From the NCBI RefSeq assembly GCF_000009765.2, contig NC_003155.5, positions 5,146,001 to 5,210,000 of the forward strand: a DNA stretch of 64,000 bases, written 5' to 3'. Source of the DNA: Streptomyces avermitilis MA-4680 = NBRC 14893 (GTDB taxonomy: Bacteria; Actinomycetota; Actinomycetes; Streptomycetales; Streptomycetaceae). Position 1 is the stretch's first letter. Each line of letters opens with the position of its first letter. The position numbers were made by a program, and so were the translations under genes. Below, piece by piece: positions 24,677 through 31,777 of this stretch. The notes under the pieces are model-generated. The model saw only the letters and a list, made by a program, of their open reading frames with translations. It was not told the origin of the DNA and searched no databases.

Positions 24677-24752
24677 ATCCTGGCCGCAGGTTGGCCGCAC
24701 GCGCTGGTCAGAGGTGGGATACCGGCGAAGCAGGGTGAGACAAGGTCACGCG

Positions 24753-24871
24753 GAAGGGGTGCCCCTCCCGAGAGTGGCACCCCTTCTGACCTGCAACACC
24801 TTTGACCTGCGCGGTGGGTGTGGGATTTGAACCCACGGTGACATCGCTGCCACGACGGTTTTCAAGACCGT
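24753..24871. repeat. Left attachment repeat (3' tRNA-Ser fragment plus terminator)
   Basis: Identical over 119 bp to 31632-31750. Positions 24812-24871 are the 3' 60 nt of tRNA-Ser(TGA), lacking the 5' half, so it is not a functional tRNA. Positions 24753-24786 hold the tRNA terminator hairpin (AAGGGGTGCC / GGCACCCCTT). Confidence 0.93.
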
Positions 24872-26523: not shown

Positions 26524-27388
26524 GACCGTGTCCTATGTGGTGAGGCGGACCAGTCGTTTGTAGCAGCACAGTGCAGCGGCGAGGCCGAGAAAGGCCAGGT
26601 AGTTCCGGAGATTGCGTTCGTAGCGGGGGCTGATTCGGCGGTAGCCGGACAGCCAGGAGATGGTCCGCTCGATGACCCAACGGCGGCGGCCCAACCGTTC
26701 GCTGGACTCGATGCCTTTGCGGGCGATGCGCACGCCGATGCGCTTGCCGCGTAACCATTTCCGCAGGTGAGGAATGTCGTACGCCTTGTCCGCATGGAGG
26801 CGCTGGGGCTTGAAGCAGCGGCCGCGGTGGGGGTCGTGTCTCGTTTGGTGACCGGCCACCATCGGCTTCAGGCCCTCGCTGTCGTGGACGTTGGCGGCGG
26901 AGACGCCGACGACCAGGGGCAGTCCGTTCGCGTCCGACAGGACGTGCATCTTGGAACCCGGCTTACCTCGGTCCACGGGGCTCGGACCTGTGTGTTCGCC
27001 CCCTTTTTAGCCCTCACGTGCGCGGAGTCGAGGACGACGCGGGAGACATCGATGAGACGGGCGTCGTCGAGTCGGTGCAGGACCGCTTCGTGCAGCCGGC
27101 CCCAGACCCCGGCCCTGGACCAGATCAGGAACAGGCGGTGGGCCGTCGACTTCGATATGCCGAAGCACGGTGGCAGAGCCCGCCAGGCGCACCCACTCAC
27201 CAGCACGTAGATGATCGCCGCAAACAGCGTCTCATCAGGCGTGTCCTGCGTGCCGCCGCCCTGCGGCCGCACCTTCGACGGTGGGATCAACGGCTTGGCG
27301 ATCTCCCACAGCCCGTCCGGAACAATCCAACTCCACGTACCCCGCCCCATACACGGAACAACGAGCGATCACCACATAGGACACCGTC
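26524..27388 (-). mobile_element. IS5-family insertion sequence (complete)
   Basis: 865-bp element with 20-bp imperfect terminal inverted repeats (left GACCGTGTCCTATGTGGTGA, right complement identical but for one base) and a 3-bp TTA target duplication (26521-26523 and 27389-27391). It contains one transposase gene in two overlapping frames and lies downstream of the secreted-cargo operon promoter region. Confidence 0.9.
26533..27350 (-). CDS. IS5-family transposase, two frames joined by probable -1 frameshift
   Basis: The N-terminal frame (27350 down to 26868) gives the DUF4096-like domain (LWEIAKPLIPP, GCAWRALPPCFGISKSTAHRLFLIW) and the first DDE Asp in VLDSAHVRAKKG. At about 27000 the sequence AAAAAGGGGGC allows a -1 slip that yields KKGGEHTGPSPVDRGKPGS and joins the C-terminal frame (26976 down to 26533) carrying the second Asp (HADKAYD) and the Glu region (RRWVIERTISWLSGYRRI). 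Such shifting is normal in this IS group. All DDE segments are present, so the transposase may be active. Confidence 0.87.
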
Positions 27389-27400
27389 TTAGACGTCGTT

Positions 27401-27560
27401 TCATTTGGTGAGGCGGCGCTGGCAGATGAGGGCTGCGGCGATGCCAGCGAAGGCGAGGCAGTGTTCTGCCTTGCGTTCGTAGCGGCGGTGGAGTCGGCGG
27501 CAGCCGGCGAGCCAGGACACGGTCCTCTCGACGACCCAGCGGTGGCGGCCGAGCCGCTTT
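27401..27560 (-). pseudogene. C-terminal fragment of a second IS5-family transposase
   Basis: Encodes about 53 residues, the end of a different IS5-type transposase (RLGRHRWVVERTVSWLAGCRRLHRRYERKAEHCLAFAG), stopping at 27401. Its left terminal sequence abuts the complete IS (TTA at 27389-27391). Upstream it breaks off at about 27558, where element DNA starts. It is related to, but not derived from, the intact IS next to it. Confidence 0.85.
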
Positions 27561-28278
27561 GGCCCCGGCCCGTAAGGCAGCACGTCAGGCGCTGCGCAGG
27601 TCCGCGGCCCACTTCCAGGGGCGCCGCCTGCTCGCCGCGCTGCTCGCGCTGCCGGTCGGTGTGCTGGGCTGCCTGACCACCTGGATCGGCCGCAAGTTCG
27701 ACATCCCGTCCCTGATACATCCCGGACGGCGGCTGTACCGGCGGATGGTGCAGACCGCGGGCGATCAGCGCGCGGCGCGTGACGAGGCCGCCCGCCAAAC
27801 CCTGCGCGAGCAGGAGGCCGCCGCGGATGCGGAGGCAGCGCAGGACGGCACGGACGGCATCGCGGACGGTGTCGAGCGTCCGGCCGCGAAGGTTCCCGCC
27901 AGCACGAATCCCGAGGTCAGCGAAGGAGAGCACGTGTCCGGATTCCAGTTCGAAGAGGTCGCCTCCGAGATGGAGCAGGCCGCCAACCAGTACGACCCCG
28001 AGAACGCCATGGAGATCCTCGCCATGGTCGAGGGTCTGCCGGCCGCGCTGACCAGCGTGGCGAACGTGATGAAGATCCTCGCGGAGCGCTCCGACTCGGA
28101 GTTCCCGCTGGAGAAGGAGGTCGCGGACGGCTTCAACGACATCTTCGGCGCCCTGATGAGCGCCGTCGCGGTCGCCGAGGACATGGGGCCGCTGTTCCGG
28201 CAGGCCCACGAGCAGGACATCGCCCGGCATGAGGACCCCCGCAACGGCACCGAGGCTGAGAAGGGCTGGAACGTCTGA
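27559..28278 (+). CDS. AICE conserved protein upstream of traB, 5' end replaced by IS remnant
   Basis: About 239 residues from a TTG that belongs to the IS junction, so the original N-terminus was probably lost. The sequence keeps a basic stretch, a membrane segment (RRLLAALLALPVGVLGCLTTWIG), a Glu/Ala-rich helical linker (DEAARQTLREQEAAADAEAAQ), and a C-terminal domain (FEEVASEMEQAANQYDPENAMEILAMVEGLPAALTSV). Similar proteins precede traB in Streptomyces AICEs; their role is unknown. It ends one base before the traB ATG, suggesting one operon. Confidence 0.7.
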   Translation: MAPARKAARQALRRSAAHFQGRRLLAALLALPVGVLGCLTTWIGRKFDIPSLIHPGRRLYRRMVQTAGDQRAARDEAARQTLREQEAAADAEAAQDGTDGIADGVERPAAKVPASTNPEVSEGEHVSGFQFEEVASEMEQAANQYDPENAMEILAMVEGLPAALTSVANVMKILAERSDSEFPLEKEVADGFNDIFGALMSAVAVAEDMGPLFRQAHEQDIARHEDPRNGTEAEKGWNV

Positions 28279-28279
28279 G

Positions 28280-30368
28280 ATGAGCAGCACCGCCACCGCC
28301 AAACAGAACAGCGCGAGTGGCCCGGTGCTGGACTGGGCTGCCGGTCACGGACCCGTGACCGGCGCCCTGTCCGCGACCACCGGAGCCTTCGCCGTCGCCA
28401 CCACCGGCGCCGCAACCGCCATGCCCCCCGGCTGGGCCCTGGCCGTCGGTGCCGCCGGCGCGCTCGGACACACCGTCGTCGGCCTGCGAGTACGCAACGC
28501 CGGCCGCACCCTCGCCACCCGCGCCGCCTCCTGGCTGGTCGGCGCCGGCTGGACCACGTGGGCCATGACGAACGGCCCGCTGACCTGGGCCGCTCTCGGC
28601 TCGCTCGCCACGATCGGCGTGGGCATCGGCGCCGCCGCCCGCTCTGCCGCGCTGTACGAGGAGGCACGCGAGGAGGAGGCCATCGCTGCGGAACAGCGGC
28701 AGATCGCCGCGGAGTTGTCCACGGAACGCCGCGCGATCGCCGCGGAATGGGTCGACCGCATCCAGCGCGTCTGCTCCATCACCGTGCGCGTGCTGGGGGT
28801 GGAGATGTGGGAGACCGGTGCCGGGTTCTCCATCGACGCAGAACTCCCGCCCGGCGGCGCCACCTGGAACAAGATCGCAGCCGAGTCCCCGCGGCTGTCC
28901 GCGGACGCCCGGCTGCACCGCCACCACGTCCCCCGGCATCGACCAGGGCCGGGTCATCATCGACGTGACCACGGTCAACGTCCTGGAGCAGGAACGCACC
29001 TACCCCACCGACTACAGCACGCTGTCCCTGCACACGGGCATCCCGTGGGGGTATCGCACCAACGCACAGCAGATCCTCGCCTACCTGCGCGAGCAGTGCG
29101 CCCTGATCGTCGGCCCGACCGGATCGGGCAAGACGAACATGGTGCACGCGATCCTCGCCGGGTTCGCCCGTGCCGAGGACGTCCTCACGTGGGTGATCGA
29201 CCTGAACGCCGGATCGGCCGGTCTGCCGTGGGTGCTGCCCGCGCTGAACGGCCAGATCGTGCGGGAGGACGGCAAGCCCGTGCGGCCCGGTATCGACTGG
29301 CTCGCCGGCACGTTCGATGAGGCCATGACGATGCTGGATGCGGCCGTGCGCGTGGCCAAGCAGCGCAAGATGGGCTACCAGGCGCTTCTGTCGAAGGCCA
29401 ACACGGACCTGTTGCCGATCAGCGCCAAGATTCCTCAGATCATGCTCGTGATCGATGAGGGCGCGGAGATCCTGGTCAGCCCCGACCGGCAGGTGCGCAA
29501 GCTCGGGGAAAAGATCCTGGAAGTCATCCGGATCGCCCGCGCCATGGGCGTGCGCACCGTGCTCACCGCGCTCGGAGCGACTGGCAGCGTGCTGAGCAAC
29601 CTGATGATCCGCCGCGAGGCAAAGGTCCGTGTCGCTCTCACGGGTAGCGAGACGGAGGGCATGGACCTGAGCAAGATGTTCCCCGGCAGCCGGGGCCTGC
29701 GCGTGGACCAGGCCCCTTACAAGGGCGCCGGGTTCATGGGAACCCCGGAGTCGCCGGCCGCGCTGTTCAAGGCCTGGCGGATCCTCCCGAACCAGATCCG
29801 GGAGATCACCGCCGCCACATCCGACCGGCACCCACGGCTGGACGACGTGTCCGCAAAGGCAGCCGGACCCGCATACGCGCGGCGCTGGGATGCCGACCGC
29901 ACCGCATGGATGCGCGACCAGGCCGTGTCGGACGACGCCGGCGATGACTCGCCCGTGACGCCCGGAGCGCTCCGCCTGTCCGCACTGAACGAGCAGCAGG
30001 AGTCTCCCGAGGACGCCCTCGCACGCCGATTCCGGGAGGAGATCGACGCGCAGTTCGGCACCGCACCCGAACCCCACACCACCGAGCAAGACGACGTGGC
30101 GGAGCGGCCGGTCGGACTGAACCTGTCGGCGCTGCGGGACGAGCAGGACAGCCCAGCGCAACAGGCCGCGCTCGCCGCACTGATCGCCGCCGGGCCCGCC
30201 GGGACGGGAGCATCCGCGATCGCCCGCACTCTCGCCGACGGGTTCGGGACGACGCGTCAGACGGTCGTGGGCTGGCTGAAAACTTGGCTGACCGACGGCA
30301 CCGCCGTTCGCGTCGGGGAGGGCACCAAGGCCCGCTACGTACACCGCTCCCACACCCCCAACGGCTGA
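28280..30368 (+). pseudogene. traB: traB (FtsK/SpoIIIE-type conjugal DNA translocase), frameshifted
   Basis: Single-protein translocase of Streptomyces conjugation, moving double-stranded DNA through a hexamer. Frame 1 (28280 to about 28910) gives the N-terminal membrane part and the region up to AADARL-like SADARLHR. Frame 2 (about 28905 to 30368) gives SPGIDQGRVIIDVTTVNVL, Walker A GPTGSGKTN, Walker B LVIDEGAEIL, and a C-terminal winged-helix-like region (ASAIARTLADGFGTTRQTVVGWLK). The frames meet at a GGCTG near 28908-28915; loss of about 8 nt between short repeats would explain this. As read the gene is broken. Confidence 0.85.
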
Positions 30369-30371
30369 TCG

Positions 30372-30518
30372 CTTGTCGCTTGTCGTCCCTCACGCGCCGC
30401 ATGTCGTCTAACGGGTCAGTGGGGCCCGAATACGGTTTGTGACCTGGGAGGCGACAAGCGACAAGACAAGCAACGCGACAAGCCGCACGACAAGAGGGAC
30501 GACAAGCCACGCGACAAG
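30372..30518. repeat. GACAAG repeat cluster, candidate clt/TRS transfer locus
   Basis: Just after traB, seven copies of (G)CGACAAG or GACAAG lie in direct orientation between 30451 and 30518 (at 30451, 30458, 30465, 30475, 30488, 30500, 30511), and two inverted copies (CTTGTCG) at 30372 and 30379. Streptomyces TraB recognises clusters of 8-bp TRS repeats in clt loci beside traB. The copy number, unit size and position match that pattern; the unit sequence is different from the pSVH1 TRS (GACCCGGA). Confidence 0.72.
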
Positions 30519-30536: not shown

Positions 30537-30565
30537 GGGCCCGCGCCACCTGTTGGCGCGGGCCC
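30537..30565 (+). terminator. Hairpin downstream of traB and the repeat cluster
   Basis: GGGCCCGCGCCA / TGGCGCGGGCCC inverted repeat with a 5-nt loop. It separates the clt-like array from the small membrane protein gene. No T-run follows. Confidence 0.6.
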
Positions 30566-30590: not shown

Positions 30591-30899
30591 ATGCGCCAGC
30601 CCACCCCGCCCGGACAGATAGCCCCACACATCCCCGCCGACGTCTTCCAGCGCTCTCAAGCGACCGGACAGCCGGTCGTGTTCGTCGTCAACGACACCCC
30701 GCCCGCCGTCCCCTGGGCCCGGCTCCTGATCCCGTTCGCGATCGCCGGGGCCGCCGCTCTTGGCACCTGGGGCGTGGTCGCCGCCTTGTGCTGGCTGATG
30801 GACGTGGCCGCGCACACCGCAACCGTCATCGGGGGCGCCGCGGGACCCATCGGAGCCGGCGGCATCACGCTCAAGCTCGCCCGCGGCAAGAACACCTAG
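30591..30899 (+). CDS. Small membrane protein of the element (Spd-like position)
   Basis: A 102-residue protein with two hydrophobic segments (about 45-69, WARLLIPFAIAGAAALGTWGVVAAL, and about 80-93, ATVIGGAAGPIGAGG) and a basic C-terminus (KLARGKNT). ATG 30591 has GAGGGAG upstream. In AICEs and plasmids, small membrane Spd proteins that help intramycelial spread often follow traB. The assignment rests on position and topology only; sequence similarity is not evident to me. Confidence 0.6.
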   Translation: MRQPTPPGQIAPHIPADVFQRSQATGQPVVFVVNDTPPAVPWARLLIPFAIAGAAALGTWGVVAALCWLMDVAAHTATVIGGAAGPIGAGGITLKLARGKNT

Positions 30900-30988: not shown

Positions 30989-31345
30989 ATGACCCAACCT
31001 GCCAACGTAAGGCGAGACCCCGCCTTACCGATCAGCACAGATCTCACCCGACTCGGACTGCTCGCCTGGGCAACGCAAACCGCACAGCGCGGCCGGCACG
31101 TCATCCCGCTACGGCCGAACGACAAGCGCCCGGCAGGCCACGCGGAGCAGTACTGCCCCGCCACCGGGCGGTGCGCGGATGGACACAAGACACCCGAGCA
31201 GCGCGCCACCACCGACGTTGAACTGCTCATCGCCGCATGGGCACAAGCGCCGTACAACGTCCGTATCGCCACCGGCCCTTCCGGGCTACGGGTCATCGAC
31301 CTGGACGGCTCCATCCGCACCGCCCGCCCGCGGGAGGCCGCATGA
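30989..31345 (+). pseudogene. Truncated element Prim-Pol replication gene
   Basis: N-terminal 118 residues of a Prim-Pol protein: LLAWATQTAQRGRHVIPLRPNDKRPAG, then a Cys/His zinc-like cluster (YCPATGRCADGHK) and GPSGLRVIDLDGS with the catalytic DxD. The frame stops soon after, so the SGGxH motif and C-terminal domain are missing. ATG 30989 follows GGAG. In AICEs this gene would be the replication initiator. Its stop overlaps the start of the integrase remnant, marking the deletion junction. Confidence 0.8.
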
Positions 31346-31554
31346 CCGCCCGCAACTCCCCCCACCTGGAAGGCCTACCGCGCCCCGCCCGACCGGCCGG
31401 ATCTCAGGCGACTGTGGGCGAACCGAAGGTCGCCGCGCGCGCCGGCCACAGCATCGCTGTGCTGTACCGCTTCTACGCGAAGATCTTGAAGGGGGGCCAG
31501 CAGCAGTCCAACAGCCTGATCGCCCGCGCGCTCGACGAGGGGGAATGGCCCTGA
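31342..31554 (+). pseudogene. C-terminal remnant of tyrosine integrase
   Basis: The last about 45 of 70 residues match the integrase end: VAARAGHSIAVLYRFYAKIL then GGQQQSNSLIARALDEGEWP. The RxxGHS motif and the Tyr nucleophile segment (YRFYAK) are present but the catalytic RHR core is gone. It lies 77 bp from the right attachment repeat, the normal place for an AICE integrase. An internal deletion fused it to the Prim-Pol stump. Confidence 0.85.
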
Positions 31555-31630
31555 TCCCGGCCCACAGATGGCCCATACGCACTGGTCAAACCTGGGATAT
31601 GGGCGAGTCGGGGTGAGACAGGGTGAACGC

Positions 31631-31666
31631 AGAAGGGGTGCCCCTCCCGAGAGTGGCACCCCTTCT
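31631..31666 (-). terminator. Terminator of tRNA-Ser(TGA)
   Basis: Hairpin AGAAGGGGTGCC / GGCACCCCTTCT with a 12-nt loop beyond the tRNA 3' end on the minus strand. It is part of the duplicated attachment repeat, so a copy also lies at 24753-24786. Confidence 0.75.
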
Positions 31667-31750
31667 GACCTGCAACACCTTTGACCTGCGCGGTGGGTGT
31701 GGGATTTGAACCCACGGTGACATCGCTGCCACGACGGTTTTCAAGACCGT
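31632..31750. repeat. Right attachment repeat of the element
   Basis: 119 bp identical to 24753-24871, from the anticodon arm of tRNA-Ser(TGA) through its terminator. On this side the repeat joins the true 5' half of the tRNA (31751-31777). Confidence 0.93.
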
Positions 31751-31777
31751 TCCCTTAGGCCGCTCGGGCAACCCACC
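31691..31777 (-). tRNA. tRNA-Ser (anticodon TGA), element target
   Basis: Class II tRNA of 87 nt on the minus strand: acceptor arms GGTGGGT/ACCCACC, anticodon stem ACGGT/ACCGT around loop CTTGAAA (TGA), variable arm CGTGGCAGCGATGTCAC, T arm GTGGGTTCAAATCCCAC, discriminator G. The 3' part is duplicated at the far end of the integrated element. Confidence 0.97.

Follow-up and report, generated by a model that had tools for sequence, protein, structure and literature searches.

The gamma winged helix of the double-stranded DNA (dsDNA) motor FtsK reads short oriented repeats, the KOPS, which are spread over the chromosome and serve orientation. The locus described here likewise combines the winged helix of a dsDNA motor with short oriented repeats. 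Whereas KOPS are distributed along the chromosome, however, the element in the window (i.e., the whole stretch of 64,000 nucleotides of Streptomyces avermitilis MA-4680 DNA that was analyzed) carries one dense array that would mark cargo.

The closest described systems are the clt loci of plasmids. The TraB protein of pSVH1 is reported to recognize 8-bp repeats through helix alpha-3 (as cited in the available excerpts of PMC3583192). These repeats, the TRS of the pSVH1 clt, are read via alpha-3 of the TraB C-terminal winged helix, as predicted for the window; the pSVH1 TRS is GACCCGGA, in contrast to GACAAG at 5-, 7-, or 12-bp spacing here. The same excerpts place the clt of pWTY27 at the end of tra, where short direct repeats (TGACACC) are footprinted by the Tra protein; the position and repeat organization are alike, but the letters differ from GACAAG (PMC3583192). 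The clt loci of pJV1 and pIJ101 also consist of multiple short direct repeats plus inverted repeats, although theirs are CCGCACA[C/G][C/G] and GC/AAAC repeats (PMC3583192, available excerpts). For pSAM2, the available part of PMC9513070 states that no clt has been described and raises the question of hijacking; it also mentions defective AICEs in which traB persists, as well as a remnant that lacks it. A clt class of the present kind was not found for AICEs in the openly licensed literature searched.

The repeat array and the element around it

Seven direct copies of GACAAG lie on the forward strand at 30453 to 30518 (starts at 30453, 30460, 30465, 30477, 30489, 30501, and 30513; spacing of 7, 5, 12, 12, 12, and 12 bp). 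This candidate TRS array forms the core of the putative clt and begins 85 bp after the traB stop codon (30366 to 30368). The preliminary description had reported seven copies of (GC)GACAAG in 68 bp and two inverted copies directly after traB. The number of copies was correct (the span is 66 bp), but the GC prefix holds for only four of the seven; C precedes GACAAG in six. The inverted copies are likewise present as a doublet on the reverse strand at 30372 to 30385 (30372 to 30378 and 30379 to 30385, 7-bp spacing). A conserved GACCTG box (30441 to 30446, forward strand) is located 12 bp before the first direct copy, and a perfect 12-nt inverted repeat, terminator-like and retrieved as a pair in the inverted-repeat listing, follows the array (30537 to 30565). 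The window array thereby combines clustered short direct and inverted repeats with a position beside traB, as expected of a clt.

The heptamer CGACAAG is in excess throughout the window (33 seen versus 8.5 expected; this number was reached in 0 of 100 shuffles), a surplus that is probably in part coding (Asp-Lys). The clustering, more than this surplus, is the telling feature. Random 560-bp windows of relatives carrying the same class of TraB tail (class A; n = 1,346, leaving out 700 bp around the traB stop) held a mean of 0.18 copies of GACAAG on both strands, with a maximum of 2. Within the 9.12-Mb genome to which the window belongs, three copies at exact 12-bp spacing occurred only in the window array (four overlapping matches), and the reversed-pattern control gave none. 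A looser cluster pattern gave 11 matches in this genome, three of them inside the array.

The array is part of a decayed 6.9-kb element between two 124-bp direct repeats that are 99% identical. The left att repeat (24748 to 24871) is a partial copy of the tRNA-Ser region, and the right one (31627 to 31750) overlaps the tRNA-Ser(TGA) gene (31690 to 31777, reverse strand); both share an exact 28-mer, at 24813 and 31692. The left part of the element contains an IS4/IS5-type transposase gene in two overlapping frames (26536 to 27350, reverse strand; Pfam DDE_Tnp_1, 2.4e-19; DUF4096, 9.9e-23). A stretch of this gene (26612 to 26697) recurs at 27471 to 27556 (86 bp, 83% identity), immediately ahead of the open frame that precedes traB, and is perhaps the remnant of a second, related insertion sequence. 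The frame itself (27559 to 28278, forward strand) had no Pfam match and is spread-type by position only.

The traB gene (28280 to 30368, forward strand) encodes a putative FtsK-like dsDNA translocase whose frame is broken near 28.92 kb, leaving two frames (28229 to 29320 and 28818 to 30368). Its match to Pfam FtsK_SpoIIIE (PF01580) has an E value of 1.1e-4 and a score of 22.1 bits against a cutoff of 24; the relatives retrieved by the homologue search are from Streptomyces and reach 89% identity across almost the entire query. Beyond the putative clt, the forward strand carries a small open frame (30591 to 30899; ORF list and Pfam scan) that is again spread-type by position only, a truncated Prim-Pol replication gene (30989 to 31345; Pfam Prim-Pol, 4.1e-13), and a frame without a Pfam match (31237 to 31554) that is probably a C-terminal remnant of an integrase gene. 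In the relative L013, the frame at traB is unbroken and 738 aa long, and a complete Prim-Pol domain (8.2e-48) follows downstream. The window element thus has the 124-bp att repeats of an AICE at a tRNA gene but no intact set of int, rep, and traB: the traB frame is broken, the Prim-Pol gene is truncated, and int is at best a possible remnant. It is the relic of an AICE, in decay.

No other close relative of the window traB was found in its own genome by the homologue search of 392 genomes. Because the window traB is broken and no other close relative of it came up in this genome, the site could work only in trans, and it may act as a mobilization start for an incoming class A element. Two further FtsK-family genes are present in the genome (G000:C1:4619370-4619951, L164; 4911423-4912007, L166), with frames of 511 to 515 aa.

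The C-terminal tail of TraB (30111 to 30365, forward strand) was assigned as a class A winged helix from alignment, an AlphaFold2 model, and matches to winged-helix structures. Helix 68-81 of the model (RQTVVGWLKTW...), encoded at 30255 to 30296 on the forward strand, is predicted to be the recognition helix alpha-3. The model has pLDDT values of 82 to 92 in blocks over residues 31 to 100, and a second-look aligner matched it to solved winged-helix domains with Z scores of up to 9.9. Foldseek retrieved no match to the model at an E value of ≤0.001, and a profile search of solved structures gave nothing significant. FtsK gamma was absent from the 50 rows listed in either structure comparison, an absence that carries no weight. 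Pfam helix-turn-helix families were matched at about 1e-4 at best, and by single members only. The tails of class A and class B (see below) are both winged helices according to the models.

Taken together, we read the repeats as the clt of the decayed AICE, in which each GACAAG is a TRS read by the class A TraB winged helix, mainly through alpha-3 (probability of roughly 0.88). By analogy with pSVH1 and pWTY27, the winged helix would bind GACAAG chiefly via alpha-3, the hexameric TraB motor would load on DNA bearing the array, and the loaded DNA would be pumped, double stranded, into the recipient.

Helix classes and repeat classes among homologous loci

Homologues were retrieved with the open part of the window TraB as the query. 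They comprised at least 79 loci from genome contigs, 30 loci (the window's own included) found by searching 392 genomes from the genus, 68 of which had a match, and 40 stretches chosen by coordinate. The traB stop was located in 144 loci, of which 127 were distinct after removal of 17 duplicates. Two loci could not be assigned to a helix class (L081 and L133); those whose fetched DNA contained no stop (L061, L072, L073, and L129) or that had no motor match (L132) were left out. Class A was the most numerous, in part because the query TraB itself belongs to this class.

The preliminary description had named absence of the motif beside close homologues of this traB as an outcome that would refute its proposal; the opposite holds, as all 86 distinct class A loci carry the motif beside traB. 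The main cluster holds 6 to 11 copies of GACAAG within 500 bp after the traB stop, and 580 of 599 intervals between copies are 5, 7, or 12 bp. The inverted doublet, in degenerate form, was found in 70 of the 86 loci and the GACCTG box in 77; in 76 of these, the box precedes the first direct copy by exactly 12 bp. In an alignment of 12 class A rows, the invariant letters concentrate in the doublet, the box, and the array, while the spacer is variable. A GACCTG within 500 bp after the stop was also observed in classes D (6/6) and C (2/3), but in only 1 of 24 class B loci; the box is thus shared between classes whose repeat letters differ. The element had been proposed to use a distinct TRS with the core CGACAAG; the repeats do form a distinct class, yet it is one of several and not private to this element. 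Indeed, GACAAG is the commonest repeat class among the homologues fetched with the window TraB. A distant BLAST search of the array region against plasmids gave no match, and the TraB proteins of 17 plasmid records were all <60% identical to the window TraB.

Helix and repeats were scored as agreeing if at least four copies of the class repeat lay no more than 350 bp from the stop (L019 and L026 were read to 500 bp); the class B, C, and D patterns had been picked from an initial inspection of these very loci. Under this score, the helix class matched the repeat class in 82 of 84 class A, 24 of 24 class B (CCASTA type), 3 of 3 class C (TGACAG), and 5 of 6 class D (GTGGGA) loci. In L021 and L117, the class A loci that did not score, the arrays lie further down. 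None of the four scored arrays was reached in classes E (n = 1), F (n = 2), and G (n = 2) or in the class D locus L137. The most frequent word in the single class E locus was ACAAGC. L137 has a class D TraB without GTGGGA repeats and shows ACCCACACAG-like repeats after the stop; it perhaps represents a further subclass.

When the most frequent 6-mer beyond the stop was determined blind, it was CTTGTC/GACAAG in 75 of 84 class A rows, CTGTCA in 3/3 class C rows, and GTGGGA in 5/6 class D rows; CCAGTA, CAGTAG, AGTGGG, and CCACTA were among the top words in the 24 class B rows. Within class B, the letters of the recognition helix were compared with the majority flank of the repeat (8 to 14 hits per locus). 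Helices with KDRKTV go with CCCASTA (7/7), those with RSRQ have GCC before the core (14/14; the core in L064 is GGTA, reading GCCGGTA), and those with RE(S/A)V go with GGCAGTA (2/2); RSRH showed a weak TCC (n = 1). Two loci of a single genome (L062 and L063) share 294 of 300 motor residues, while their recognition helices differ and the repeats differ accordingly. The sequences directly show the array with its 5-, 7-, and 12-bp phasing, the doublet, the box, and how helix class pairs with repeat class. Which repeat a locus carries depends, as it should for a clt, on the class of its TraB winged helix in the sense of an association, with physical linkage of the two as a confounder.

Joint exchange of helix and repeats

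The association was examined on a tree of the motor domain only (122 rows), computed by a quick search without a mixture model and accompanied by long-branch warnings, mainly for distant rows. On this tree, the label A requires 16 changes, 11 of which are forced by well-supported branches. Among 11 independent pairs differing in helix class, the repeats follow the helix in 10.6 on average and run opposite in 0.0 (median P = 0.001). For class A versus class B alone, the respective values are 8.7 and 0.0 of nine independent pairs.

Five of ten aligned pairs show a diverged stretch of helix plus clt between similar flanks: L112/L145 and L118/L119 (each pair from one genome, L145 having an inner stop), L059/L077, L117/L078, and L117/L152. 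In these clear swaps, the motor part is mostly 77 to 96% identical per 100 columns. Identity drops to about 30 to 56% across helix and clt in the A/B pairs (lower at the L117 insert) and, in the A/C pair L118/L119, to 66 to 76% over the helix and 52 to 56% over the clt. It then returns to 80 to 99% for a few hundred bases beyond the clt. Downstream identity was not clearly restored in the other five pairs (L054/L147, L138/L067, L088/L084, L016/L084, and L123/L125), with 74 to 77% in places for L088/L084. Based on the five clear swaps, the end of traB that encodes the helix has been replaced together with the repeats as one cassette.

Because helix and repeats adjoin, their pairing could come from linkage alone, and this is the main caveat. 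In its neutral form, this explanation holds that the two were exchanged together as mere neighbors, the repeats being unrelated to TraB; in its favor, the two are adjacent and both were replaced in the five swaps. No recombinant between helix and repeats was seen, although the roughly 200 bp involved may leave room for few. Against mere neighborhood, the repeats and their phasing are conserved while the spacer varies, the same array is kept at places where no traB was found (see below), and a Tra-clt function is established in related plasmids. We therefore hold neutral linkage to be highly improbable. A winged helix that reads GACAAG fits both the natural swaps and the predicted winged-helix fold.

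The swaps also bear on whether the repeats might instead be an operator, either for an element-encoded GntR/Kor repressor or for autoregulation by TraB, and not a transfer locus. AICEs do encode GntR-type Kor repressors, and SCO3932 protects repeated sites of the form AC[TC]T[AG]TT[GC][TG][GT]ACG (PMC8584621, available excerpts); moreover, a GntR/UTRA gene is present in the traB-less element of L238, described below. The repeat class, however, follows the TraB winged helix while the flanking DNA stays similar, up to 11 phased copies after traB do not resemble an operator at a promoter, and the Kor motif in the literature is a different one. An operator thus appears very unlikely, if marginally less so than neutral linkage.

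Array carriers without traB

Returning to the clt reading, we looked for arrays across the genus. A strict GACAAG triple matched in 196 of 392 genomes, with many matches resembling Asp-Lys-rich coding repeats; since the triple alone proved a poor clt detector within the genus, the 19-bp array head was used in its place. This head retrieved 61 places in 49 of the 392 genomes, while the reversed pattern retrieved none. In 45 of the 61 cases, the head lies 87 to 409 bp downstream of a traB match and on its strand (traB places were taken from the 392-genome search, excluding rows that were far off or on contigs without heads). The other 16 heads, at 13 places, do not follow a traB match. No homologue of the motor or of the class A winged helix was found in the fetched stretches surrounding these 13 places, and the nearest FtsK-family gene was about 41 kb away among the matches listed (E values to about 0.009).

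An int-xis-rep organization is common to seven of the 13 places, with integrases 54 to 72%, excisionases 72 to 75%, and Reps 69 to 96% identical (best segments) to those of L238. In L238, the array lies between the excisionase and integrase genes, with the GntR-UTRA gene nearby. Within the fetched stretches, these seven elements have their own integrase and excisionase without a translocase, as expected of mobilizable elements. Their Reps are 31 to 33% identical over 453 to 516 residues to sequences in 30 AICE loci. The remaining traB-less places with a class A head (L230, L232, L233, L235, L237, and L239) fall outside the int-xis-rep family. Two inverted heads, 74 to 82 bp apart, were observed in L232 and in the family members L234 and L242.

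When 295 genomes were searched with a piece of Rep, 28 of them yielded a total of 30 matches, and identity was ≥77% in 11 matches; one further family member (G310) is outside the 295 genomes. Seven of the 11 close Rep relatives carry a GACAAG array, including G178, whose contig ends before any integrase. A CCASTA array accompanies the Rep-family element of G202. The element of G019 (L268) has a TGACAC array resembling the pWTY27 clt (PMC3583192, available excerpts) and a second array, GCGTCA, 2 kb away (L268, 3600 to 4000 and 5850 to 6150), which might be the true site in this element. G194 and G256 have neither GACAAG nor CCASTA/TGACAC; GGACGCT-type repeats, classed by position only, occur there together with a box, GACCTG or GGTCAG, close to one end. 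Nine more distant Rep relatives (L273 to L281; 58 to 61% identical to the L238 Rep) contained none of the known arrays; their integrases are distant or absent, and two have a weak TraB-like match.

Phased direct repeats do look iteron-like, and a Prim-Pol gene lies downstream of the window array, which would suit replication iterons bound by Rep. The repeat class nevertheless switches with the TraB winged helix, and Reps that are 69 to 96% identical to that of L238 (best segments) are found with GACAAG, CCASTA, or TGACAC arrays; the array therefore does not follow Rep. Iterons are, in our estimate, the least probable of the explanations considered.

The box spacing of the putative clt is largely retained in these carriers. 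The box is at 12 bp in 11 of 14 array loci where no traB was found, and among the family's GACAAG carriers this distance is 12 bp except in L236 (17 bp) and L240 (21 bp). Five of 11 stretches tested (G202, G015, G268, G194, and G256) have direct repeats of 18 to 85 bp, the two longest with one mismatch, bracketing 8.2 to 9.3 kb that hold int, rep, and the array. No accepted bracketing repeat was found in the other six; a 21-mer (G269) and a 19-mer (G023), both like a motif recurring in several stretches, and a short 16-mer (G310) were not counted as att. No FtsK-family match was among those listed for the stretches of G019, G194, G256, and G202.

As to possible helpers, three of the seven family host genomes have a class A traB elsewhere (G015, G023 with an inner stop, and G268), in what is a small sample, and the host G082 has only class B traB genes among its matches. 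Viral contigs scanned with the Rep of these elements contained no relative, and a strict array scan of viral contigs retrieved a single contig, with an ordinary class A traB.

The traB-less array carriers probably ride on the TraB of other elements, and a TraB of the matching class would move them in trans. We lean, by a modest degree, toward a broader proposal: that TraB-type dsDNA conjugation in Streptomyces has parasites, i.e., 8- to 9-kb int-xis-rep-clt elements without traB that bear the tag of one class (mostly GACAAG, with a single CCASTA and a single probable TGACACC) and switch helpers through tag exchange, with winged helix and tag forming an exchangeable specificity cassette. Like integrative and mobilizable elements, these carriers would integrate by themselves and lack transfer machinery; known mobilizable elements, however, rely on a relaxase together with type IV secretion (PMC5704250, available excerpts), whereas the traB-less carriers have a TraB-type clt. 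No description of traB-less clt carriers was found in the openly licensed literature searched, as far as its available text extends; in the available text of two reviews of mobilizable elements, "clt" is absent from one, and "AICE" and "FtsK" are absent from the other.

The recognition-helix variants paired with repeat variants amount to a natural mutant series for a DNA-recognition code. A tag with several classes also makes hijacking testable by sequence: a TraB should be shared between elements of the same tag, but not between elements whose tags differ. With the traB-less carriers, the range of hitchhiking elements would come to include dsDNA conjugation and, if the proposal is true, the helix-tag cassette would decide which elements co-transfer or are hijacked.
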